Of a stretch of 36,723 nucleotides of DNA, positions 2,915-29,669 are shown in pieces. This stretch comes from a virus. The stretch spans positions 1 through 36,723 of the IMG/VR virus record IMGVR_UViG_3300035698_002753; one strand, written 5' to 3'. Positions within the stretch are counted from its first letter, which is position 1. Every line of letters begins with the position of its first letter. A model generated the notes under the pieces. The model did no database searches. It worked only from the letters and a program-made list of their open reading frames with translations, and was not told the DNA's origin. Both the position numbers and the translations under genes were made by a program.

Positions 2915-3583
2915 TTATTTTTTAACTTGTATCTTGTTTAAGTCTGCATTTGTTATTCCTTCTGCATGCTCCTTCATAAACTCGATTATATTATCAGGGT
3001 GCAAATACTCGCGCTGTCCATCTGGGTGAATAAACCATAGCTCTCCTCGGTTCTCTACCTGTAAGAAGTATGGATAGTCACGATTAGCACATTCTTTTGA
3101 GAAGGTTGCATCAATCTCGCTTGGCTTTTCTTTTATTGCCTTTGCCTCAAAATACGCTGCGCCTGTAATCTTCTTATAAGTTTTAAAACAGTTCTTCTTC
3201 TTTCCGTCCCAAGGGTCAATGATTGTATAGTCTTGACTAAATGTATTCTTTCTTACAGCCACTACCCAATGACAATGATCCACCTCAAGGATAACTGCCG
3301 TGTTGATTCCCTTTAGTGCTTTCTGAAGACCCATGTCGTTATGCCCATGCTCACGAAGAACAAACCTCATCTTATCCAGATTTAGGTGACTCCAAATAAT
3401 CAATCCGCTATCTGTATAATTGTGTACGTTATGGGCCATCTCCAAAGGGCTTTTATGGCACCCGAAGTAATCTGAGAGCATTGATATAGCTGTAGTGGTA
3501 CAACCGTATCTACCCACTGTAAGAGTAGAAGCTCCAAGTTTATCCTTAGACCATCGTGTATCTCGCTGTGATAAATGTTTCAT
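2915..3583 (-). CDS. C39-like cysteine peptidase, putative endolysin
   Basis: A 222-residue protein with a papain-like C39-family pattern at the N terminus: 'LSQRDTRWSKDKLG', then 'GRYGCTTTA' with the likely nucleophile Cys28, 'DHCHWVVAV' with the likely catalytic His105, and 'IIDPWDG' with Asp123. It would cleave a peptide bond, plausibly in peptidoglycan cross-links given its place between XhlA-like and holin-like genes. The C-terminal region (about 150-222) is unrecognised and may be a wall-binding part. No signal peptide is seen, so export would need a holin. It could instead be a non-lytic peptidase. Junction to the upstream gene is TAG-T-ATG. Confidence 0.7.
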   Translation of the reverse strand: MKHLSQRDTRWSKDKLGASTLTVGRYGCTTTAISMLSDYFGCHKSPLEMAHNVHNYTDSGLIIWSHLNLDKMRFVLREHGHNDMGLQKALKGINTAVILEVDHCHWVVAVRKNTFSQDYTIIDPWDGKKKNCFKTYKKITGAAYFEAKAIKEKPSEIDATFSKECANRDYPYFLQVENRGELWFIHPDGQREYLHPDNIIEFMKEHAEGITNADLNKIQVKK

Positions 3584-5647: not shown

Positions 5648-7717
5648 TTATGCTTTTAACATTTGTTCGATCTCTCGCGGTGTGTAGTATCCTCCACCTG
5701 CTTTAGTTATTGTTAAGTCTAGGTGTGATCCGTCGCCTCCTTTACCAGGGATTGTATTACCTGAGTTACCACCTAACGCAACGTTCTGACCAGCTTGTAC
5801 TGCGTCACCCACACTTACGTTTGATCCGCTTAAATGAGATAACCATATTATATCTCCATTAGGCGTTTGAATTTGTACCTGCCCACCAAAACCTCCGTTC
5901 TCGCCTACAAAGACTACTTTACCGTTTGCAGGGCTTGGTACTGGATCACCTATCTTTAGATCAATGTCCAATCCATGCTCCCATAGTGGGCTTCCGTATC
6001 CAGTTATTGTACCCAAGTCTAATACGCTTGAGCCGTTTTGTGACGTGCCCAGGTCTGAACTAAAACCTAACTCTTGGTTTATCCTAAGCCTAATATCTTC
6101 TATCGGCACACCCTGTGACGCAAGAGTTTCTGCGTCTGACATAAGTATGTTCACCTCATCAGGTGTTAGCAACTGCCCTGCTGATGTTTTTGTTTCTGAT
6201 AATGTTTCTCTTAATGCGTTACTATCAAACGATGTAGGTGTAGCGCCTGTTGCGCCGAATGTTCCTGATCCACCCGCACTCTCTAATGCTCTCTGAGCTA
6301 GAGTTTTAATAGTATTTAATTCTGTTATAAATGCTTCTTCGCTTATTTCAAACTTACCTGTTGCGATACCATTGTCATCATACTGAGTCCATGATCCGAT
6401 CTTTGACGCAGCATTTTGCAACATCACACGTTCCTGATCTGACAAAGCACCAAGTGTACCTCCGCGTTCTTTTAACGATACAAGAGTGTCGATTGTTTCC
6501 TTTGAGATAAGCTGATTGACTCCAGCAGCGAACTCTTGACGTGCGCCCTTATCTGCTGAAAAAGGAGTGAACCGTGATATTCCATAAGAACCAACTGATC
6601 CTGTCAGTCCATCACTTGCAATAAGATCGTCAATCAAAGAAATTTTATCTTGCAATGAAGCGATTGCTGTTGTGTCTACTTGACCACTCTCACCAAAGCC
6701 TGCAAGAGACTCCCAACTGTTAGTGGCTGCGTTCCATTGGTGATCTACTCCATTGATGTCCTGAATCGAAGGCGCTCCTGTAGTTGTTGGATCATCTGGT
6801 GCATAAGCTACTACATTACCTTGAGCATCGTATCTTGCTTGTCCTGGACTTAGAGTGAATCCATCTGCTGTCTCTGTAGGCGCGTCACGTAGCGTTGTAA
6901 CCTGCCCTGTGGTCGGATCGTACTGAACTAGTGCTCCATTTGATTCAAACGGTGTCAGCGCTGATTGCTGGTTTTGTAAGAATCCTAGCTGTGTAAGCGC
7001 TGCTTGCTGTTCTGCCTCTCTTTGTGCCTGAATGTTACCTAGCTCGCCAGTAAGCGTCTGTAGACGTAGGTTAGCTTGATCTGTGATCTGTCCCTGTCTA
7101 CCACGTACTAGATTTAGCTCACGTCCGCGTCCTTGGCCTTCCTCACCAGATATAGCCATATTCGCAGCACCTTTTAGTGCTGTAATCTCGCTTTGTATTC
7201 GTTGTTCATCTGCTGTCGGTGTAGTGCCTCCCGTTACCTGACTTTGCAGTGCAGCGATCTGAGCTTGCAATGCGCTTGTAGGTGAAGGAATGTTTTGCTG
7301 TGGTTGTGCTGGTGCTGGCGCTTGAACCTGTGGTGTAGGATCAGTAGATGCTTGTATATCACCACTGCCTAATCCAGACGGTGCTGGATCTGTTATGCCA
7401 CCGGAGATCGTGAAGTCCGTTGGTTTTTGTACTGTGCTTTGGACGGGCGCTGGTTTGTTTGGCGTTGATAGACCAGGTTGCAATGGCCCACCAGTATACT
7501 GCCGTACAGGTGTGGCTTGTGCGTTTTTATTTGAGCTAGTAGCTGGTATAGCTGAAGATGCCGCTACTTGTCCCTCAGATGGTGTCTTTGGTATCTGTGG
7601 GTAGTGTGCCTTGGTTTTAGCCTCACCAGCCGTTCGTTGTGTTTTAATGAAGTTTGTTAGTTGGCCAAAGCGTTCTTTTACTCTGCTACCAACAGCTTCT
7701 GAGAAGATATTAGCCAT
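5648..7717 (-). CDS. Large virion protein with degenerate M23-like domain
   Basis: A 689-residue protein. Residues about 50-160 are a Pro/Ala/Gln/Thr-rich linker; about 160-260 look like coiled coil; the middle is unrecognised. The last 125 residues resemble an M23 (LytM/lysostaphin) metallopeptidase domain: 'EHGLDIDLKIGDPVPSPANG', 'GGFGGQVQI', 'IWLSHLS', 'GDAVQAGQNVALGGNSG' and 'GSHLDLTI'. In the family the zinc is held by HxxxD and the second His of HxH. Here the positions read E-H-G-L-D and H-L-D, so two of three ligands are replaced. It may be inactive and only bind wall material. It is probably carried in the virion. Confidence 0.65.
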   Translation of the reverse strand: MANIFSEAVGSRVKERFGQLTNFIKTQRTAGEAKTKAHYPQIPKTPSEGQVAASSAIPATSSNKNAQATPVRQYTGGPLQPGLSTPNKPAPVQSTVQKPTDFTISGGITDPAPSGLGSGDIQASTDPTPQVQAPAPAQPQQNIPSPTSALQAQIAALQSQVTGGTTPTADEQRIQSEITALKGAANMAISGEEGQGRGRELNLVRGRQGQITDQANLRLQTLTGELGNIQAQREAEQQAALTQLGFLQNQQSALTPFESNGALVQYDPTTGQVTTLRDAPTETADGFTLSPGQARYDAQGNVVAYAPDDPTTTGAPSIQDINGVDHQWNAATNSWESLAGFGESGQVDTTAIASLQDKISLIDDLIASDGLTGSVGSYGISRFTPFSADKGARQEFAAGVNQLISKETIDTLVSLKERGGTLGALSDQERVMLQNAASKIGSWTQYDDNGIATGKFEISEEAFITELNTIKTLAQRALESAGGSGTFGATGATPTSFDSNALRETLSETKTSAGQLLTPDEVNILMSDAETLASQGVPIEDIRLRINQELGFSSDLGTSQNGSSVLDLGTITGYGSPLWEHGLDIDLKIGDPVPSPANGKVVFVGENGGFGGQVQIQTPNGDIIWLSHLSGSNVSVGDAVQAGQNVALGGNSGNTIPGKGGDGSHLDLTITKAGGGYYTPREIEQMLKA

Positions 7718-19668: not shown

Positions 19669-20517
19669 CTATATCAGATCAGTCATTCTTGAGTTACGCA
19701 GGTTTTGGGAAGTGGTGACTTCTTCATCGGCACTGGTTGAACTGTCTGAGTTCATCATTTCAGCTACCTTTTTCTTTCTTGTAGTCGTCTCCTTCTTAGA
19801 GCCTTTTGCTCTATCCCACATGTAAAATGCTTTCTCTATATCAATCACGCCATTAGCGTCTGTAGGCTGTTCCTTGATAGCGAACTTCACTACATTATTG
19901 ATGTCAGAATCAGATAGGCCGAAAGCGCCTTTTACTCGGATCTTTTCTTCCTCGTAATAATCGTCAATTTCTTTTTGTCTATCTTCAACTGCTTTATCCT
20001 CAGCTTCACGGTCAGCGATGATCTCTTGTTTCAATTCATCTTTCAATGAAGTTTTAAGAGTCGTTACTCGTTCTGCTTCTTGCTCGTTGAAAGCGTCCCA
20101 TGTTTCCTGATCGTACCCCAAGTTTTTTGCATACTCTGGTACAGGTTGTGATTTAGCTTCAACGGTCGGCTTATCGCTAGCTAACTGCTGTTCGAGTTCC
20201 TCGATTCGTCTATCCTTGTCTTTCGACTCTTTGTAGACTTTCTTAAATCGGGGGTTCTCATGTAGAGGAGGTAACTTGATCTTAGGTTCTTTTGCATCGG
20301 TGTCTGGCTCATCTGACTCTGCGTCATCTGAGTCCTCTGACTTCTCGCCGTCCGAAGCTGGCGTTTCTTCCTCTGTCTTATCGTCTGACTCCTTTGAGTC
20401 ATCTTTTGAATCTTCTTCTGAATTTTCGGTTTCTGCCTCCAATTCGTCCTCTCCTAGATTAGCGAATATATCATCACTATCTGAGGGCAAGTCTTTTAGA
20501 AAATCATCATCTAACAT
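19669..20517 (-). CDS. Putative capsid scaffolding protein
   Basis: A 282-residue, very acidic protein. The first 80 residues are dominated by Asp, Glu and Ser, then come 'ENPRFKKVYKESKDKDRRIEELEQQL' and coiled-coil helices, ending in a basic tail. This acidic-plus-helical layout directly before the major capsid gene is typical of phage scaffolding proteins. It would guide capsid assembly and then leave the head. No protease motif is seen, so a separate protease may not be used. Assignment is by composition and position. Confidence 0.65.
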   Translation of the reverse strand: MLDDDFLKDLPSDSDDIFANLGEDELEAETENSEEDSKDDSKESDDKTEEETPASDGEKSEDSDDAESDEPDTDAKEPKIKLPPLHENPRFKKVYKESKDKDRRIEELEQQLASDKPTVEAKSQPVPEYAKNLGYDQETWDAFNEQEAERVTTLKTSLKDELKQEIIADREAEDKAVEDRQKEIDDYYEEEKIRVKGAFGLSDSDINNVVKFAIKEQPTDANGVIDIEKAFYMWDRAKGSKKETTTRKKKVAEMMNSDSSTSADEEVTTSQNLRNSRMTDLI

Positions 20518-20587
20518 ACTGCAAAGTTTTGTTAATGGGTCTTAGAACCCAATGTATTAGCATGGTTTTAAAGACCAAGAACTTAGC

Positions 20588-22366
20588 TTATAACGCTGGT
20601 ACTCCAGGTGTCTGAGGTACTGGCGGTAAAGATTGTTGCTGAGGCGGTGGTTGTATTCCACCTGGGACTGTTGGAAGGCCGAGTTCTGCTGCGCCTGCTA
20701 CTGGCTCTTGTCCCTCCGGTACTGGTTGTGCTGGTGCTCCAAATAGTGAGCCTGGGTCTGACTGCCATTCAAATAGACGCTTTGCCATTGCCTCTGGGTC
20801 TGGGAAGTCTAACTTTGAATAGAAGGTAATAGGATCAATCGCTCCTGCGCTCCATAGATCCATCGCTTCATTACGTTGTGTAAGCGTATCCTTTGGAAGC
20901 ATTGAACCTTCTTTAACACTGATGAGAAGTTTTCTGTTTAGATCGTCCTTCTGCAATGTAAAGTATTCCTCTGTCTTCTCTGCTCCTATAACTGACGCTG
21001 TGTGCTCCTCATCGTAATAGACATACATCATCTGTACTGACCAGTTGAATAGGTAATCAACCATCTGCTCAATGTAATCTGCAACCAATGCGATACGGTC
21101 AACGTCCTGTCCTTTGATCTCAATCTTTCCACGCACTGTCTTCTCTTCCATTGTTCCTTGTGCTGATGATCCACGGATACCAAAGATGTTTCTAATCTCA
21201 TCACGCACATCGAGCAAGTTGTTGTAAACCTGTGTTGGCAGTGGTGTTCCTGAGTCCTTTGCGTATGATCCTGGGATCTCTCCTGGCACCAATAGGTTTC
21301 CACCTTTACGCAATGTGTTGGCTGCCTTTTGTGCCTCTGCGTCTGTGAAAGCGTTACCACTTAGAATGTAACCAGCGTTCAAGCTGTCAGTGTTCTTATC
21401 TATCTGCTCCATTCGTTTATTAACGATGTTCTGCAATGGGATAGATTGTTCAATAAGTGACGTTTCGTCGTGCGGCTGCTTTCCTGTTGAGAATACTGAT
21501 AGGAAGGTAAACGGCATCTGCGGAACTCTAAAGTGGTTCTTACCAATGTTCTCTACCTCTACTGCGTCACCATACTCATCTGTCTCTTCTGTGGTGTTGT
21601 CGTAGTTCCAATGAGGGTTACGCACCTTTGCTAGTACCTCATCGAGTAGCGTCCAGAACACATATTCGTCAGTCCACCATTCGATATACTGAATCTTGGT
21701 TCCTTTCTTGTTCTTTGATTGTTCAAGTATCAATGTCTTCTTCTTAGGGAAACGTCGTAGCATCGTCTTTGCTGTATCAGTACGCAACTGACCAATGTAC
21801 TTACCTCTGTATCTTCCTTTAACGATCTTAGACATCGGATCAAGGATCAGCTTAGATGGTCGTACCACCTCATAACTAATCTCGTCCTCTATATAGTCCC
21901 AACCGATCTTAATCACACCAATGTAATACAAAGCCCAATGCCTTACAGCATCTTTGATTCTGAGCTTTAACGCTCGCTCATCTGTGATTGTGATTAGTTG
22001 TGCCTCTACTGACTTAGAAAGCTCTCTACCCTCGTCTGAGTTGTCTGAGCGCACTGTAGGCTCAGGGTTCTGTCTTGTAGCGATTGGTAGGAACGTCTCC
22101 AATGATTCAAAGATAATATTGTCCTGATTCTGACCATTCATTCCAAGCCAATATCTATTAGCCTCTTTCTGCTTAGGCTTGATCTTGCCCTCGTAAGCAT
22201 CATAATCGCTCTCCCACTGTTGCTTTAGCTTGGTTAACTCCTTATCGGTTATCTTTAGCGTCAACTCATCTTCAAATTCAGAAACAACACCCTCCTCATT
22301 ATAAGTGGTGCTTTCCTCTACTTTGTTAGTATCGCTGTTAAGTCCTAATTTGTCCCAAATACCCAT
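20588..22366 (-). CDS. Portal protein
   Basis: A 592-residue protein of the size and layout of large portals. It shows 'KQKEANRYWLGMNGQNQDNIIFESLETFLPIATRQNPEPTVR' near the N terminus, the 'HWALYYIGVIKIGWDYIEDEISYEVVRPSKLILDP' central block, 'PQMPFTFLSVFSTGKQPHDETSLIEQSIPLQNIVNKRMEQI' and a Pro/Gln-rich C terminus. The portal forms the dodecameric ring through which the terminase pumps DNA. It stands between terminase and scaffold genes. Its ATG lies only a few bases after a terminator U run, so it depends on the promoter and leader at 22369-22460. Confidence 0.85.
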   Translation of the reverse strand: MGIWDKLGLNSDTNKVEESTTYNEEGVVSEFEDELTLKITDKELTKLKQQWESDYDAYEGKIKPKQKEANRYWLGMNGQNQDNIIFESLETFLPIATRQNPEPTVRSDNSDEGRELSKSVEAQLITITDERALKLRIKDAVRHWALYYIGVIKIGWDYIEDEISYEVVRPSKLILDPMSKIVKGRYRGKYIGQLRTDTAKTMLRRFPKKKTLILEQSKNKKGTKIQYIEWWTDEYVFWTLLDEVLAKVRNPHWNYDNTTEETDEYGDAVEVENIGKNHFRVPQMPFTFLSVFSTGKQPHDETSLIEQSIPLQNIVNKRMEQIDKNTDSLNAGYILSGNAFTDAEAQKAANTLRKGGNLLVPGEIPGSYAKDSGTPLPTQVYNNLLDVRDEIRNIFGIRGSSAQGTMEEKTVRGKIEIKGQDVDRIALVADYIEQMVDYLFNWSVQMMYVYYDEEHTASVIGAEKTEEYFTLQKDDLNRKLLISVKEGSMLPKDTLTQRNEAMDLWSAGAIDPITFYSKLDFPDPEAMAKRLFEWQSDPGSLFGAPAQPVPEGQEPVAGAAELGLPTVPGGIQPPPQQQSLPPVPQTPGVPAL

Positions 22367-22368
22367 AT

Positions 22369-22395
22369 AAAAAAAACTAGTCGTTAATGACTAGT
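22369..22395 (-). terminator. Intrinsic terminator / attenuator directly before portal
   Basis: On the minus strand, ACTAGTC pairs with GACTAGT (7 perfect bp, 6-nt loop) and is followed by eight U. The U run ends two bases before the portal ATG. A promoter lies upstream (22431-22460), so this terminator is inside the leader of portal. Upstream AGTCC can pair with GGACT, which overlaps the first arm, giving a possible anti-terminator. Hence an attenuator is likely rather than a simple end. Confidence 0.7.
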
Positions 22396-22430
22396 CCGCC
22401 TTGGTTTTGGTTAGGACTGCTTATGAATCA

Positions 22431-22460
22431 ATAATAGCACAAAGCACACATCCTGTACAA
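22431..22460 (-). promoter_or_regulatory. Likely late promoter for portal and structural genes
   Basis: Minus strand: TTGTAC (-35), 18-bp spacer, and TATTAT (-10) with an extended TGC immediately before it. Predicted start is about 22424, giving a leader of near 57 nt that holds the terminator hairpin. It lies in the 117-bp gap after the 66-residue gene, one of the longest gaps in the structural block. Confidence 0.55.
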
Positions 22461-22483
22461 ACGCAAACGAAAGTTATACACAG

Positions 22484-22684
22484 TTAGTCAGCCTTTATCC
22501 ATCTTTCTAGCTGTACGCCCTTGAAATTACCATTGCCATCGAAGTGCATAATAACCTTGCCTCCCTTGGTTGCCATCAGACCTTTATCCACCAACATACC
22601 AAACACATCATAATGCTCTAAGAACTGCTGATACTTCTCAGCGTCCTCTGGTGTCAAATAAATAGGCGTATCAAAGTCTGACAT
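22484..22684 (-). CDS. Small hypothetical protein between terminase and portal
   Basis: A 66-residue protein beginning MSDFDTPIYLTPEDAEKYQQ. ATG 22684 overlaps the TerL stop by one base (TAATG), so it is translationally coupled to it. The 'GKVIMHFDGNGNFKGVQLERW' end is strand-like; the middle is helical. No motif or family is recognised. Position suggests a packaging or head-assembly accessory role. Confidence 0.55.
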   Translation of the reverse strand: MSDFDTPIYLTPEDAEKYQQFLEHYDVFGMLVDKGLMATKGGKVIMHFDGNGNFKGVQLERWIKAD

Positions 22685-25128
22685 TAAAAATCCCAATCAT
22701 ATGTTTCACCTGGAATTAGTTGAGCTGTACCCTCAAGACTAATCTCTGGTGCTTTAGTTATACCTTTATGTTCTTGTGCTACAACGAACTTTGCTTGACC
22801 ACGACCAAAGCGATCCATACCGATGCGCCATAGGACTGAGCTATGACAATTCGCAACCAAAACTCCACTAGCAAAATACTCGTGTTGATCTTTTATGGTT
22901 AGATTGTATACATCTTCATTTCTTGTTCTTCGCTCTATGCCAACGACCATTACACAAACGGGAACAGTATTTACCGCCGTTTGTACTGCGTGTATAAGCC
23001 TTAATACCACACTGAATACAGCTAAACTCTTTAGGCTCAGATAAAACAATACTATTGAAAGCATGTTCTGAGTGCCACTTCTTGCCTTTGGCTGTTTTTC
23101 TCCACTCGTGCGATAGCTCACGAATCTCATGAAGATGTTTAAGATTATGCTCTCTGTATTCGCTGTTAGCCCAGTTTTCTTTTGCATGTTTAGACATGTG
23201 CTTTCCTCTTTGTTCACACGCAAGATTAGTGATCTCATTATTGAGAGGATCGCCGTCTTTATGGTGGATAACAAAACCTTTAGGAATCTCCCCATTATGG
23301 AATTTCCAAATCTCTTGATGAAGTCTCCCCATGCCTCTTTTACGGCATGCACCGTCTGGTACATAGTAGACCTGCTCTGATCTTGTTTTTGCTTTAGGGT
23401 ATCGTCTAAACTTAACTCCGTTGAAAGTAATTGTTTCTGTATTTGACATGAGTACATTGTATCACCTGACACGATAGCGTTAAGGGTGATCCATTTACCA
23501 TTTGTGAATACTTTATGATCTGGTGTACCTGTCAAAACTCTACCGTTAGATAGATAACAACTAATAACTTCTGCATCTTCTTTAACTAGCCATGAACGCT
23601 CAACTGGCTTATAACCAGCTCGTGTCAAAACTTCTTCGCCTACTTCAATGTTCTTAATCTTCTTGTTACCATTTCTTGTTAATACTTTTGTATCTTCAAC
23701 GAAACACCAATGATCGTTACCATTGCTACTTTCCCATGTAAATATTGGTGAACCAATCGAATCAACATCAGTTAATCTATAGAGTGTGTCCCAATGTGAA
23801 TAGAACTTTTCCCAATCTCCCTCGTTACCTTCAAGCGGTATCAGTCCCTCTGTGAACTCATCAATTACCAACTGGATCATGCGGTTACGATCACTGAGAA
23901 CATTTCCGCTCTCCTTATCCTTACCCCAACGTATCAACTGCATTGTCTTCCTATCTCTTGCGTAATGATTCAAGAACACTCTGCCCTTAAACTCCTCACG
24001 TAACTTACGTGGACCAGTGATGTCTGGCATTGCGTCAACGATAAGAATTGATTTGTGAAAGCGTTTAAGCAATCGTCTGATGTCCTCCCACTCCTCAGTC
24101 ACTCCGTAATAGAATATGCCCTCATCGTTACCAATCGTGTAATGCTTCTTGATCCCACTATCGCAACCAATAATGACATGCTCTTGTCCGTTTACCTCTT
24201 GCGTACAATTATTATAAATCATCTCAGGCGTTACCTTGTTACCTGATCCAACATACGGCAGACCAAGAACGAAGTTATAGAAATATTCCTCAGAGTTATT
24301 CTCATAAGCATGGATAATATCTTTCGCTGACTTCCACTTCACCATCAACTGTGAGATGTGATAACCGCTATACTCACGATCTTTAAACCGTGCCACCCAT
24401 CGTCCTACTCGTCGATCCTCATTGCTCAACTCAGCCTTACAATATCTACACTGGAACACCTGACGCTCCATGCACACATTGCCCTCTGAATTCTTAGCCC
24501 ATTTAAGATATTGTTCTTTCTTACATTCCGGACAAGTGATAAACCATTCCTTCTGATCGGATCGTTTCCAATATTTGCTCACGCCGTTACCTTCCACACT
24601 CGGGTTAGAAAAGAACCACTCCCAAGCATATTCAGAATGATCTAAACGTGATTTATACATCTCAATAATCCTCTGCGTGCAACGATCAACCTCATCGTGA
24701 ATATTCAAATCAGACGTAACAGAAATAGCCTGTTGCTCTGTCGTTGTTCCACGATAGTAGATCATGTTGTTACCTACCTGCTTCTGCTCAATACTGTTCT
24801 TATCTTCCATCCAATCGTTCATCACAGGATTGTGGACAATCATTCGATTGATCTTACCACCAACCAATACCTTGATATCAACACTAGATGGCATGGTATA
24901 GATCGCATCCAATCCAAACACCTTAACCGCATACATGCTCTTGAGCGCCGCGGCTAACGTACCACCAACCTGCGCAGCCTTTAACCAAACCTGCTTAGGT
25001 GACCAATCAGCCAAAATATCATACAGGAACATGTGGTTCCGTATGTCGTAAGGCTTTCCACTCTCGGTCTTCAACTCATTTTCAAGTATCCAAGCATGGA
25101 TAGATATGTCACTAAGTTTCTTAGTCAT
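22684..25128 (-). CDS. Terminase large subunit (gpA-like) interrupted by an intein
   Basis: An 814-residue precursor. The N-terminal ATPase part has a lambda gpA-style Walker A, 'LKAAQVGGTLAAALK' (residues 49-63; Lys upstream, no Lys in the usual place), Walker B 'IHDEVD' (143-148) and a CxxC...CxxC zinc motif (199-230). Predicted nuclease Asp residues are D323 ('GCDSG'), D365 ('IVDAMPD') and D472 ('NDHW'). Residues 475-760 are an intein, after which 54 C-terminal residues (Cys761 onward, 'CHSSVLWRIG') complete the enzyme. After splicing the enzyme would be about 528 residues. It cuts and packages DNA through the portal. The stop overlaps the next gene's ATG. Confidence 0.85.
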   Translation of the reverse strand: MTKKLSDISIHAWILENELKTESGKPYDIRNHMFLYDILADWSPKQVWLKAAQVGGTLAAALKSMYAVKVFGLDAIYTMPSSVDIKVLVGGKINRMIVHNPVMNDWMEDKNSIEQKQVGNNMIYYRGTTTEQQAISVTSDLNIHDEVDRCTQRIIEMYKSRLDHSEYAWEWFFSNPSVEGNGVSKYWKRSDQKEWFITCPECKKEQYLKWAKNSEGNVCMERQVFQCRYCKAELSNEDRRVGRWVARFKDREYSGYHISQLMVKWKSAKDIIHAYENNSEEYFYNFVLGLPYVGSGNKVTPEMIYNNCTQEVNGQEHVIIGCDSGIKKHYTIGNDEGIFYYGVTEEWEDIRRLLKRFHKSILIVDAMPDITGPRKLREEFKGRVFLNHYARDRKTMQLIRWGKDKESGNVLSDRNRMIQLVIDEFTEGLIPLEGNEGDWEKFYSHWDTLYRLTDVDSIGSPIFTWESSNGNDHWCFVEDTKVLTRNGNKKIKNIEVGEEVLTRAGYKPVERSWLVKEDAEVISCYLSNGRVLTGTPDHKVFTNGKWITLNAIVSGDTMYSCQIQKQLLSTELSLDDTLKQKQDQSRSTMYQTVHAVKEAWGDFIKRFGNSIMGRFLKVLLSTIKTAILSIMRSLILRVNKEESTCLNMQKKTGLTANTESIILNIFMRFVSYRTSGEKQPKARSGTQNMLSIVLFYLSLKSLAVFSVVLRLIHAVQTAVNTVPVCVMVVGIERRTRNEDVYNLTIKDQHEYFASGVLVANCHSSVLWRIGMDRFGRGQAKFVVAQEHKGITKAPEISLEGTAQLIPGETYDWDF
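22849..23706 (-). mobile_element. Intein in TerL, with nested out-of-frame HNH gene
   Basis: Intein residues 475-760 of the precursor (286 residues). The N-terminal Hint part starts at Cys475 ('CFVEDTKVLTRNG'), with 'VGEEVLTRAG' and 'GTPDHKVFTNGKWI' (block B, TPDHK). The C-terminal part is 'DVYNLTIKDQHEYFASGVLVAN' (blocks F and G) ending in Asn760, followed by Cys761. All residues for standard splicing are visible. The middle of the frame (about 175 residues) matches nothing and is simply the alternate-frame reading of the HNH gene, kept free of stops. Confidence 0.85.
22916..23449 (-). CDS. HNH homing endonuclease nested inside the intein, different frame
   Basis: A 177-residue HNH protein. 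It has an N-terminal 'GVKFRRYPKA' part, then 'GRLHQEIWKFHNGEIPKGFVIHHKDGDPLNNEITNLACEQRGKH' (about 41-84), the HNH_3-type core with HHxD (62-65) and NN (70-71), and a C-terminal zinc ribbon ('CIQCG...YCSRLC'). It lies wholly within the TerL/intein frame but in another frame, from ATG 23449 to TGA at 22918. Its last codons overlap intein strand residues just before block F. No SD is clear. It would make a double-strand cut that moves the intein into intein-free TerL genes. Confidence 0.8.
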   Translation of the reverse strand: MSNTETITFNGVKFRRYPKAKTRSEQVYYVPDGACRKRGMGRLHQEIWKFHNGEIPKGFVIHHKDGDPLNNEITNLACEQRGKHMSKHAKENWANSEYREHNLKHLHEIRELSHEWRKTAKGKKWHSEHAFNSIVLSEPKEFSCIQCGIKAYTRSTNGGKYCSRLCNGRWHRAKNKK

Positions 25129-25297
25129 CGGTTTTTAATCTTTCTTTTAAATTAGCAACCTTCTCTTTACTTGTACCCAATCGTTCCAGTATGCAGAAAT
25201 AACAAAACTTCTTGTCACCACACTTAGAGATCATCTGCTCACGATCTTTCAGCAAATCACCTTGTGCTAAATCTTCATCACATCCATCGCACCTCAT
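25121..25297 (-). CDS. Small zinc-ribbon protein between TerS and TerL
   Basis: A 58-residue protein with CxxC at residues 3-6 ('MRCDGCDEDL') and a second cluster 'KCGDKKFCYFC', so four to five Cys fit a zinc ribbon; the tail is a basic helix. It overlaps TerS by ATGA at its start and TerL at its end (stop inside the first codons), so all three are tightly coupled. It may help packaging, for example in DNA or terminase contacts; no motif proves it. Confidence 0.65.
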   Translation of the reverse strand: MRCDGCDEDLAQGDLLKDREQMISKCGDKKFCYFCILERLGTSKEKVANLKERLKTDD

Positions 25298-25731
25298 AAC
25301 TCTGGTTTTAAATATTCGTTCTTTAGCTTATCTTCAAACTCCTCACGTAATTTATTTGCGTCAACATTTACGTTGACATTTAAATTCCTATTATCGACAC
25401 GTTCTGTTGCGCCACCACTCAACAACTGATGTCGTCTTGAACTCACCTCAGTCACTTTAGCCAACTCACCTAATCCACCTTTACCCGCCTCAATCTTAGC
25501 TATTATCTTATCCTGTCCTTTATCAACAATCTTCAAATCCTTGTCTATTATTCGCTGAATTGTTTCTTCACGGCCGAAATCCCCGAATTGTCGTTTCTTA
25601 ATATCATGTACTGTAGATTTAGCAACTCCGCTAACCTCAGCCACTTCTGACTCACTTCTAGTAGGATCTTCTGTAAACAAACGAACAACATCCGCTTCCT
25701 TCTCAGCCTGCGTTAGTTGTCCTCTCGCCAT
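25294..25731 (-). CDS. Putative terminase small subunit
   Basis: A 145-residue protein with an N-terminal helix-turn-helix: 'EVAEVSGVAKSTVHDIKKRQFG' (about 29-50). The middle is helical ('GREETIQRIIDKDLKIVDKGQDKIIAKIE') and the end is charged. Size, HTH and place directly before TerL are typical of small terminases that bind the pac or cos site. It is first in a coupled TerS-zinc ribbon-TerL set. It could be an unrelated regulator, but position strongly favours TerS. Confidence 0.7.
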   Translation of the reverse strand: MARGQLTQAEKEADVVRLFTEDPTRSESEVAEVSGVAKSTVHDIKKRQFGDFGREETIQRIIDKDLKIVDKGQDKIIAKIEAGKGGLGELAKVTEVSSRRHQLLSGGATERVDNRNLNVNVNVDANKLREEFEDKLKNEYLKPEL

Positions 25732-25757
25732 ATTATTTTATTAAAATCTTATTAAAC

Positions 25758-25928
25758 CTATAAAAAAACAATCTCATTATCCTTATCATCATCATGCAAT
25801 AACTCACGATATGCCTTATCCTGCTCTTCTGTCATCAATATCTCATTGTCTCCTGTAGTAAAAGATACAAGCTCCTTCAACCTAATCAACGTAATGTTCT
25901 CAACTGGCTCGTCAGTAATATCAAACAT
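25758..25928 (-). CDS. Small acidic hypothetical protein
   Basis: A 56-residue protein beginning MFDITDEPVENITLIRLKEL, highly acidic towards the C terminus ('LLHDDDKDNEIVFL'). ATG follows the stop of the previous gene after a single T. No motif recognised. It lies just upstream of TerS. Acidic small proteins can mimic DNA, but there is no direct sign of that here. Confidence 0.6.
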   Translation of the reverse strand: MFDITDEPVENITLIRLKELVSFTTGDNEILMTEEQDKAYRELLHDDDKDNEIVFL

Positions 25929-25929
25929 A

Positions 25930-26172
25930 TTATGTAATTTCCCATTTATTATCTCTCCAATACTTATTCACGGTATCCTTAATCTTCAACTCGTAGGGCT
26001 TGAACACACCAACAAACGTACTCATGCCACTATCCTCAACAATCCAGCGTTTCTCTTTAGCCTCATCAAAATCCTTAATGCCACTCTTAGTATAGTAAAT
26101 AGCCCGCTCATCATCCATAACAACAGCTTGATAAGCAAACCTACCATCAACCACACTAGTAATTACAAACAT
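25930..26172 (-). CDS. Hypothetical protein
   Basis: An 80-residue protein with strand-rich N terminus ('MFVITSVVDGRFAYQAVVMDDERAIYYTKSG') and a basic, Trp-containing end ('VNKYWRDNKWEIT'). No family recognised. The stop is TAA, followed by T and the next ATG. It lies between the zinc-ribbon protein and the acidic protein in the early-to-late transition. Confidence 0.55.
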   Translation of the reverse strand: MFVITSVVDGRFAYQAVVMDDERAIYYTKSGIKDFDEAKEKRWIVEDSGMSTFVGVFKPYELKIKDTVNKYWRDNKWEIT

Positions 26173-26174
26173 AT

Positions 26175-26606
26175 CTATTTATTATCAAAATTAGTTCGTT
26201 GCATTTCTTCCTTCTCTCGTTCCTCACGCAAATTATCATCACCATAAACTCCCCTAAACCTAGGATCATCTCGCTGCAATAGCTCCTTCCAGTATCGTCT
26301 ACGATCGGTCCTTAACCTTTTACTCTGTACAAAATACGGATCACCGTCCTTATCAGTAATGCGCCGTATAAGCTCCTTACCACATTTACACTTAGCGCTA
26401 TAAAACCAACGTCCGCCCTTATAACTCGTATATCCTTTATTGCCAATCAACTTAAAGTCCTCATCACAACTCCTACAATAAAAGTCCACCCACTTCCTCC
26501 AAGCCAATCCTTCAATCTCAGTCTTAATCCTCAACTCCTCAGCAGTCAACTTCCTCTCATCCTTTATCCTCTTAAACTCATCCTCAAATGTATTCTCAAA
26601 GCTCAT
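26175..26606 (-). CDS. Zn-binding hypothetical protein
   Basis: A 143-residue protein starting MSFENTFEDEF; a TTG three codons upstream is less likely. A basic helical N terminus is followed by 'FYCRSCDEDFKLIG...WFYSAKCKCGKELIRRI', i.e. CxxC plus CxCG, a zinc ribbon. The C terminus is Arg-rich ('SKRLRTDRRRYWKELLQRDDPRFRG'), which could bind nucleic acid. It overlaps groES by 11 nt in another frame. Function unknown. Confidence 0.6.
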   Translation of the reverse strand: MSFENTFEDEFKRIKDERKLTAEELRIKTEIEGLAWRKWVDFYCRSCDEDFKLIGNKGYTSYKGGRWFYSAKCKCGKELIRRITDKDGDPYFVQSKRLRTDRRRYWKELLQRDDPRFRGVYGDDNLREEREKEEMQRTNFDNK

Positions 26607-28514: not shown

Positions 28515-29024
28515 TTATAATTTAGTTTCTACGGTTATTATTGTATCGTTTTTACTACCACCATGAGGAACTAATAGCACCCGTGTCATTTCAAAGCCTC
28601 TGCCTTTACCAAGCCCCATTGAGTTCCAGCCAAAACATATTACTTTACCGCCCTGTTTTAATATTCTTGAGGCCTCATCTTTAATTGTTTTAGACCAGCC
28701 TGATGAGGTATGCCAACCAGTCACCTTCCTACCGACAGCTTTATAGTGTTCTGATACTTGCCTATTAGAATATGGGGGATCTAATAAGACAACATCATAT
28801 TTATTACTTGGCTGTTCTTTTAAGAACTCTAGTGCGTCCTGATGAAACTGTGCTTCTTTAATTTCAGGATTGATATCGTTCTTAACAGTAGCCATACTAT
28901 TTTCACCACAGAAGGGATCAACTGAAAGACTAGTTAAATCTACCTCCTCTTGCAGAAGCTCTCTTATTGGCTTAATTGTAAACGTCCACTTATTGGGCAT
29001 TGCCCATATTCTATTCATTTGCAT
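28515..29024 (-). CDS. DNA methyltransferase, adenine-type (DPPY)
   Basis: A 169-residue protein using ATG 29024 (MQMNRIWAM); longer forms would use weaker starts inside the upstream gene. It shows an SAM-binding motif I 'SVDPFCGENS' (34-43), then 'INPEIKEAQFHQDALEFLKE', catalytic motif IV 'LLDPPYSN' (80-87) and 'ILKQGGKVICFGWNSMG' as the later strand. This is a class I methyltransferase, probably modifying adenine or cytosine exocyclic nitrogen in DNA. It differs from the Dam-like enzyme at the left end. It overlaps the upstream gene by 14 nt. Confidence 0.75.
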   Translation of the reverse strand: MQMNRIWAMPNKWTFTIKPIRELLQEEVDLTSLSVDPFCGENSMATVKNDINPEIKEAQFHQDALEFLKEQPSNKYDVVLLDPPYSNRQVSEHYKAVGRKVTGWHTSSGWSKTIKDEASRILKQGGKVICFGWNSMGLGKGRGFEMTRVLLVPHGGSKNDTIITVETKL

Positions 29025-29211
29025 AGTTTTTTTTCTTGTTTTGTATTTCAATTACATCAACTGGTTGCAAAAAAGCATATTCAGGCGCATTCATTTCCGC
29101 TTGATCTAACGACATATATAGGTTCTTATCATTGTTAATACAGCCATTAATCCCATGTACTTTCCACATAAGCCTACCCTTGTAAGTATGTCTTTGCTTT
29201 ATTTTCTTCAT
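29011..29211 (-). CDS. Small basic hypothetical protein
   Basis: A 66-residue protein beginning MKKIKQRHTYKGRLMWKVHG, with 'MNAPEYAFLQPVDVIEIQ' near the C terminus and a Lys/Asn-rich end. No motif recognised. Its last codons overlap the start of the methyltransferase. Being between a nuclease and a methyltransferase gene, it may act with one of them, but nothing in the sequence shows this. Confidence 0.55.
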   Translation of the reverse strand: MKKIKQRHTYKGRLMWKVHGINGCINNDKNLYMSLDQAEMNAPEYAFLQPVDVIEIQNKKKNYANE

Positions 29212-29216
29212 ATATC

Positions 29217-29669
29217 TTAGTTATTGGGTGGGTTATCTATTTGTAATGTTTCTAATATCTCTTTCAATTCCCAATAGCGCTTCTGATAGTCAATCACCAC
29301 CGTACCACGTTCGTTCTCTTCAAGCTCTCTTCTCAATTCTTCTACTCTCTCATACCACTCTGGATATTCTTCTTTAAACCATCCGCTTTCTAGTGGCGAT
29401 GAATGCCAGTATCTATGATGAAAACTACATAAATTTTTAATATTTAATGGATATGTAGCCATCTTAGGATGCGAACCAATTCCATAGATGTGTGATCCAT
29501 GTATCTGCTTATTACCACCAATAGACCTATCCTCAACCCCACACCGCAAACACTTGTAGCCACCAGTTGCTTTCGCGATCTTCTTAGCCAATTCAACACA
29601 CTTAGAATACGGTTTCTTGATCTTAGCTATCGCTTTCTTCTTAACTTTTATCTTCTTCTCCTTTTTCAT
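29217..29669 (-). CDS. NinG-like HNH nuclease (recombination)
   Basis: A 150-residue protein with a Lys-rich N terminus and then a NinG/Rap-like zinc and HNH pattern: 'CVELAKKIAKATGGYKCLRCG' (Cys24, Cys40, Cys43), 'QIHGSHIYGIGSHPKMATYPLNIKNLCSFHHRYWHSSP' (His57, His60, Cys81, His84-85, His89). Lambda NinG helps process recombination intermediates. The ERF and SSB-like genes on the other strand support a lambda-like recombination set. The C-terminal third is helical. It could also be a free-standing HNH endonuclease. Confidence 0.65.
   Translation of the reverse strand: MKKEKKIKVKKKAIAKIKKPYSKCVELAKKIAKATGGYKCLRCGVEDRSIGGNKQIHGSHIYGIGSHPKMATYPLNIKNLCSFHHRYWHSSPLESGWFKEEYPEWYERVEELRRELEENERGTVVIDYQKRYWELKEILETLQIDNPPNN

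Follow-up and report, generated by a model that had tools for sequence, protein, structure and literature searches.

The window analyzed here, a 36,723-nucleotide stretch of viral DNA (IMG/VR record IMGVR_UViG_3300035698_002753), contains a gene for the large terminase subunit (TerL) that is interrupted by an intein, and this intein in turn contains a complete HNH endonuclease gene in another reading frame. We interpret the arrangement as a mobile, self-splicing TerL intein that overlaps the gene for its own homing endonuclease, with translation of the latter initiated separately, and put the probability of this reading, with its predicted splicing, initiation, cutting, and homing, at roughly 0.8. 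The ribosome would make a single long TerL-intein precursor, in which the intein-frame translation of the HNH region would form an unstructured loop at the usual position of endonuclease insertion, and the two Hint halves would assemble into one fold that splices the terminase. A separate initiation within the message would produce the 177-amino acid HNH endonuclease, which would cut TerL alleles that lack the intein, at the conserved site in the nuclease motif. After the cut, the intein and its nested gene would be copied into the empty allele.

The TerL Gene of the Window Carries the Blocks of a Class 1 Intein

The TerL precursor (Table 1) has every intein motif that an initial, sequence-only reading of this DNA had named: Cys475 at the start of block A (CFVEDTKVLT), TPDHK in block B, block F (VYNLTIKDQHEYFASGVLVAN), and Asn760 followed by Cys761. 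Pfam places GpA_ATPase at residues 47–241, Intein_splicing at 493–760, above the cut-off, and PT-HINT at 482–569. It gives no match in the central part of the intein, where the same reading had seen no resemblance to any domain between blocks B and F. In the AlphaFold model of the intein, the Hint halves form a confident two-part domain with pLDDT values of ∼90, and the insert between them lies mostly at 35–53. A Foldseek search with the Hint model gives 35 matches at E ≤ 0.001; the best is gp41-1 (6qaz, probability 1.00), and Mtu RecA and other inteins are also matched. The block A cysteine, a TxxH block B, the terminal asparagine followed by cysteine, and the Hint fold are all present, and on these blocks and the predicted fold the element is probably a class 1 intein that would be expected to splice.

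Table 1. Features of the TerL locus in the window
Feature	Position	Strand	Remarks
TerL precursor ORF	22684–25128	−	814 aa; GpA-type large terminase subunit with intein; open end to end
N-extein of TerL, residues 1–474	23707–25128	−	C terminus ...GNDHW; Pfam GpA_ATPase 47–241
Intein, Cys475–Asn760	22849–23706	−	286 aa; Pfam Intein_splicing and Hint-fold model
N-terminal Hint half (blocks A–B), intein residues 1–90	23437–23706	−	pLDDT 87–94 to residue 80, 77 after
Intein-frame filler over HNH gene, intein residues 91–246	22969–23436	−	No domain; pLDDT mostly 35–53
C-terminal Hint half (blocks F–G), intein residues 247–286	22849–22968	−	pLDDT 84–92; first strand overlaps HNH 3′ end
C-extein, CHSSVLWRIG	22684–22848	−	Begins with Cys761 (+1 nucleophile)
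Nested gene, predicted HNH homing endonuclease	22916–23449	−	177 aa, ATG to TGA; Pfam HNH_3 1.3e-14; PHROG HNH 2.3e-17
Shine-Dalgarno-like AGGTGA	23462–23467	−	12 nt before HNH ATG

A penultimate histidine is customary in class 1 inteins, not defining. Among relatives of the window intein, this residue is His in 56, Ser in 23–25, Lys in 3, Ala in 1, and Gly in 1. The window intein has Ala before its terminal Asn, a residue found there in 1 of 86 members of the family, which leaves the efficiency of its splicing in doubt.

Group I introns are frequent carriers of HNH genes, and the region might be removed by a self-splicing RNA intron rather than by an intein. The complete intein blocks and the Hint fold argue against this, and Rfam models of group I and II introns give no match within positions 20000–26500, a relaxed threshold included. 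We find an RNA intron barely credible as the explanation.

The insertion site is uninterrupted in an intein-free relative (L094), which reads GNDHW/VHASVYWR, against GNDHW/intein/CHSSVLWR in the window. This allele is only ∼50% identical to the window TerL, so recent homing cannot be claimed. Identical DNA (100% over 2.6 kb) is found in IMGVR_UViG_3300005918_000272, from a second metagenome, and the layout of the window is therefore no assembly error. An in-frame HNH domain displaced by an indel in the window contig was considered and rejected, given this identical copy and the out-of-frame position of the HNH in all nested relatives.

The Nested Gene Encodes a Predicted HNH Homing Endonuclease

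As the sequence-only reading had described, the second frame holds a full 177-residue HNH gene with its own ATG and TGA, no stop codon interrupts the TerL frame across it, and its end overlaps the residues just before block F. The overlap extends over the first predicted β strand of the C-terminal Hint half (intein residues 247–259). HNH codon position 1 coincides with TerL codon position 3. The TGA within AGGTGA closes the HNH frame upstream of the gene, and the same bases lie in the codons of an intein Gly-Asp pair. In a canonical large intein the endonuclease is in frame, whereas here it is out of frame, as it is in each of the 72 nested loci in the block F/G sample described below. Nor are the intein halves on separate ORFs, as in a split intein: the window intein is one continuous ORF.

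The HNH protein combines an HNH core with a C-terminal Cys4 zinc motif (C144, C147, C162, and C166), and the catalytic and Cys columns are invariant across 16 aligned homologs (HH-D..NN..NL and a later His). AlphaFold models the protein with a pLDDT of 93.3, and I-HmuI (1u3e) is the top fold match in both searches, at a moderate level (E 0.05; Z 6.5 over 114 residues). The conserved core points to a homing endonuclease, for which site-specific cutting and homing are the predicted activities.

Elsewhere in the window, a second HNH endonuclease-like gene (phrog_5956, 2.8e-05) is located at 29217–29669 on the minus strand, near a DNA methyltransferase gene at 28515–29051. A 689-amino acid protein encoded at 5648–7717, also on the minus strand, has a metallo-endopeptidase-like C-terminal domain (phrog_7767) and is possibly a tail lysin.

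The HNH Frame Is under Selection and the Intein Frame Is a Stop-free Spacer

The sequence-only reading had both frames being kept open. Both are indeed stop-free, but they are not equally coding. In 12 independent close pairs, 85, 67, and 243 substitutions fall at HNH codon positions 1, 2, and 3, respectively. HNH position 3, which holds most of the substitutions, corresponds to the second codon position in the intein frame. Selection thus protects the HNH protein; the HNH frame is under purifying selection. Among close relatives, HNH protein identity is higher than intein-frame identity, and the latter equals the identity of the third, non-coding frame. The intein frame over the HNH gene is thus a spacer, constrained just to remain stop-free and in phase. 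The AlphaFold model, with a low-confidence insert between confidently predicted Hint halves, agrees with the spacer reading.

Across the HNH gene, the intein frame has zero stop codons. When HNH synonymous codons were resampled from the window phage's own usage in 20,000 trials, the TerL frame acquired a mean of 5.8 stops and had none in 0.045% of trials; in a second model, which shuffled the HNH gene's own codons only, zero stops arose in 3%. The alternate-frame open run at the HNH gene spans 181 codons, against 110 for the longest comparable run in 15 other window genes. For 85 distinct nested loci, chosen for zero stops (the independent count comes from the sample drawn by block F/G, below), the intein frame has 0 stops against 4.8 expected from base composition, and the other alternative frame of the same loci has 18.5 against 17.9 expected. 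The 14 HNH homologs without an open host frame have 5.6 stops, with 6.2 expected, and free-standing HNH homologs in other phages have 2 to 12 in the corresponding frame.

A dead HNH remnant with an accidentally open intein frame, or the reverse, would also leave two overlapping ORFs, and a few relatives do have shortened HNH remnants (L144 and L170). However, the HNH ORF is at least 140 amino acids long in 70 of the 72 nested loci of the block F/G sample, the 85/67/243 position bias and the invariant catalytic and zinc residues are those of a maintained protein, and both frames are open in 72 of 80 loci (the best 80 of 455) drawn regardless of HNH. Chance or decay is therefore very improbable.

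For these HNH proteins, ∼5 stops are expected in the phase used and ∼18 in the other alternative phase, so that one alternative frame is far easier to hold open. The HNH gene keeps its own stop codon, and in-frame placement would consequently truncate the terminase. Ease of avoiding stops would explain the choice of phase.

The Nested Layout Recurs in Many Phage Terminases

A viral scan with the HNH alignment, and hence HNH-seeded, yielded 80 loci, nearly all nested. A second scan of viral contigs used as its query not the HNH but the last 35 intein residues around block F/G, and the best 80 of 455 were taken. Among these 80, 72 carry an HNH gene inside the intein, all with the host frame at HNH+1, and none has an in-frame HNH; the rest comprise 5 without HNH (some with inteins of 120–124 amino acids) and 3 that are partial or split. 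Because nested loci supplied this query, and the sample is limited to the best 80 of 455, these frequencies hold for this TerL intein family and not for all inteins. The sequence-only reading had proposed HNH invasion of a mini-intein with both frames kept open. The out-of-frame nesting with both frames open is confirmed, but it is no one-off invasion, the layout being shared in the same phase by the 72 of these best 80 of 455. In-frame HNH homologs, which that reading had regarded as the contrary case, were searched for among TerL relatives, and none was seen.

Over all fetched loci, duplicates included, 164 have one ORF that spans both intein halves, with the host frame at HNH+1 at both ends, and an in-frame HNH intein occurs once. 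This case, L140:2401–3687, lies in an RtcB-like gene of a bacterial (Tissierella) MAG and has a distant HNH in frame. The nested layout is found in the same phase in a 43% identical relative (L005), Acinetobacter phage Highwayman (L006), Rhodobacteraceae phage LS06-2018-MD07 (L007), Tetrasphaera phage TJE1 (L008), and a gut phage (L010). In the deposited genomes of Highwayman, LS06-2018-MD07, and TJE1, the place where the intein and nested HNH gene sit is annotated just as “terminase large subunit.”

Among 55 N-exteins, the majority have matches to terminase families: Terminase_6N (26), Terminase_3 (22), GpA (5), and TerL_ATPase (3), in counts that may overlap. Of 87 loci, 86 have N^C or N^S at the C-terminal end of the intein. 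The usual insertion site is beside the terminase nuclease motif, between H/D-D and C-D-A-x-R-Y, with a minority at other conserved terminase sites. Five nested-HNH inteins (L200, L211, L167, L194, and L219) have long C-exteins and apparently lie outside the usual nuclease-motif site.

Two loci (L016 and L024) were rejected as nested cases and are free-standing, with host-frame stops and no intein halves around the HNH. Another, in a Methanimicrococcus MAG (L108:1464–3742; JAITUZ010000029.1), is a nested TerL intein with TAG codons at 3481 and 3488, one per overlapping frame, and at 2363, in upstream TerL. It may not be a broken case: these TAGs are its sole stops, and both frames become open once TAG is taken to encode an amino acid. 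This suggests a recoded virus or a pyrrolysine host, and with that candidate genetic code the locus may support rather than break the nested pattern.

The segment might also not splice at all, staying as a loop in TerL with the intein blocks as relics, as has been proposed for the ShiLan domain discussed below. Such a non-splicing insertion has a precedent in an out-of-frame HNH without a splicing domain (PMC11855218), and it would fit the Ala that the window has where His is usual. Yet the splicing blocks are kept at both ends over 72–86 divergent loci, the phase is held at both ends, and the Hint fold is predicted with high confidence. Moreover, the site falls within the active-site motif of the terminase nuclease, where a retained 286-amino acid segment should be lethal. 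We regard a non-splicing insertion as improbable and favor a self-splicing intein.

Predicted Expression of the HNH Gene

In the self-splicing intein that we favor, internal initiation is the best reading of how the HNH protein would be made, judging from start codons and upstream signals. The HNH start codon is ATG in 134 of 144 loci, and upstream of the start the HNH frame meets a stop at a median distance of 12 nt. A Shine-Dalgarno match of 5 nt or longer precedes 35% of HNH starts, compared with 10–11% in two controls. About half of the nested family has no clear Shine-Dalgarno sequence, and the 12 nt spacing of the window AGGTGA to the HNH ATG is long; translational coupling or reinitiation is possible.

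With −1 ribosomal frameshifting, by contrast, the HNH would be fused to the N-extein and N-intein, and no internal initiation would be needed. The HNH does lie in the −1 frame of TerL, and a slippery heptamer (XXXAAAN/XXXTTTN) is present in a narrow interval in 27 of the 144 loci, but most of these loci, including the window, have none. The upstream stop leaves almost no room for a shift, and the ATG starts and Shine-Dalgarno enrichment likewise argue for initiation. Frameshifting is thus unlikely.

HNH Loss, Split Inteins, and Free-standing Relatives

Parts of the HNH are deleted with the intein frame intact in L144, where a 118-amino acid remnant lacks the catalytic core, and in L170, where ∼47 codons are left. 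Three loci (L191, L201, and L203) have inteins of 120–124 amino acids without HNH. Five others (L111, L113, L114, L115, and L155) have a split intein, with an N half that ends near the HNH start and a C half that begins inside the HNH gene; in L111, L114, and L115 the shared phase is lost in the N half. These five, and L116, which is cut at the contig end, are putative natural split inteins with the HNH between terminase halves. One split-terminase case is from Staphylococcus borealis, and split forms are found in some bacterial-genome relatives.

Free-standing HNH relatives adjoin terminase genes in unrelated phages (L222, L223, L226, L221, L009, and L012). These forms are compatible with a series in which a free-standing gene became nested and the intein later split. 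In the HNH tree, solo and split forms fall among nested ones, but, with long branches and no support for 58 of the 112 inner ones, the tree does not reveal the order or the dates of the steps.

A broader proposal, which we advance tentatively and at somewhat less than even odds, is that phage terminase inteins make up an extensive class of mobile elements that use two frames, with an endonuclease gene that is fully overlapped, separately initiated, and held in one fixed phase. The phase would be fixed by stop avoidance in the sole alternative frame that is readily stop-free, and relief of the overlap would be a route from continuous inteins to natural split inteins with the endonuclease between the halves.

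Significance

In the textbook picture, an intein is a splicing domain that carries its endonuclease in frame. Overlapping genes would uncouple the dose of endonuclease from that of the host protein while tying two proteins to the same DNA. Terminase annotation appears to overlook many homing endonucleases, the three deposited phage genomes above being examples. Loci that differ just in their nested, split, or HNH-free state offer a direct test of the order of intein evolution and of split-intein origin, and a natural intein able to accommodate a long loop of arbitrary sequence could serve as a tool.

Comparison with Known Systems

Intein endonuclease domains occupy one conserved insertion position (PMC6801210). 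Large inteins with an in-frame endonuclease, of the PI-SceI type and including the RtcB intein of L140, resemble the window intein in that Hint is split at this usual position and the intein itself is inserted at a conserved active site. In PI-SceI-type inteins, however, the endonuclease is a domain of the intein, whereas in the window it is encoded by a second gene that overlaps the intein in another frame and has start and stop codons of its own.

In fractured genes with split inteins, an endonuclease gene lies between the halves (Dassa et al., 2009, 10.1093/nar/gkp095, as cited in PMC10448857). The split loci L111, L113, L114, L115, and L155 share this arrangement, with an HNH of the window's family, but the window intein is one continuous ORF and its HNH gene is fully overlapped. 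Free-standing HNH genes beside the terminase, as in phages PAE1, CL2, BP10, and EauM-23, also belong to the HNH family of the window; unlike the nested gene, they are not overlapped and, where tested, have a normal number of alternate-frame stops. I-HmuI, the best though moderate fold match of the window HNH, is intron encoded and has a different C-terminal part.

The sequence-only reading knew of no described case, and our literature search likewise found no description of a complete intein that contains its endonuclease in a different frame; a phage methylase with an out-of-frame HNH has, however, been published (PMC11855218). A passage of that paper calls overlapping frames frequent, citing Gosselin et al. 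(2025, 10.1101/2025.01.02.630785) and Gorbalenya (1998, 10.1093/nar/26.7.1741). Both lay outside the reach of our search, and there is a real chance that part of the intein cases is already in them. A hidden HNH in phage genes is thus a published idea, and its location inside a complete intein is apparently new.

The published element, the ShiLan domain, is an insertion in a phage methylase that carries an out-of-frame HNH without a splicing domain (PMC11855218). As in the window, the HNH is complete, with its own start and stop, and lies in another frame over a stop-free host frame. The phase is also the same, with the start at base 18 of the insertion and HNH position 1 at host position 3, and the patchy spread of the element is shared with the window family. 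We considered whether the window intein is a ShiLan-type element and rejected this assignment, since it has a complete Hint domain and ShiLan has no self-splicing domain. The ShiLan element, in which no Hint fold was found, resides in a non-essential methylase. In contrast, the intein around the window HNH has the full set of splicing blocks, interrupts an essential terminase, and belongs to a family that spans many phage lineages.
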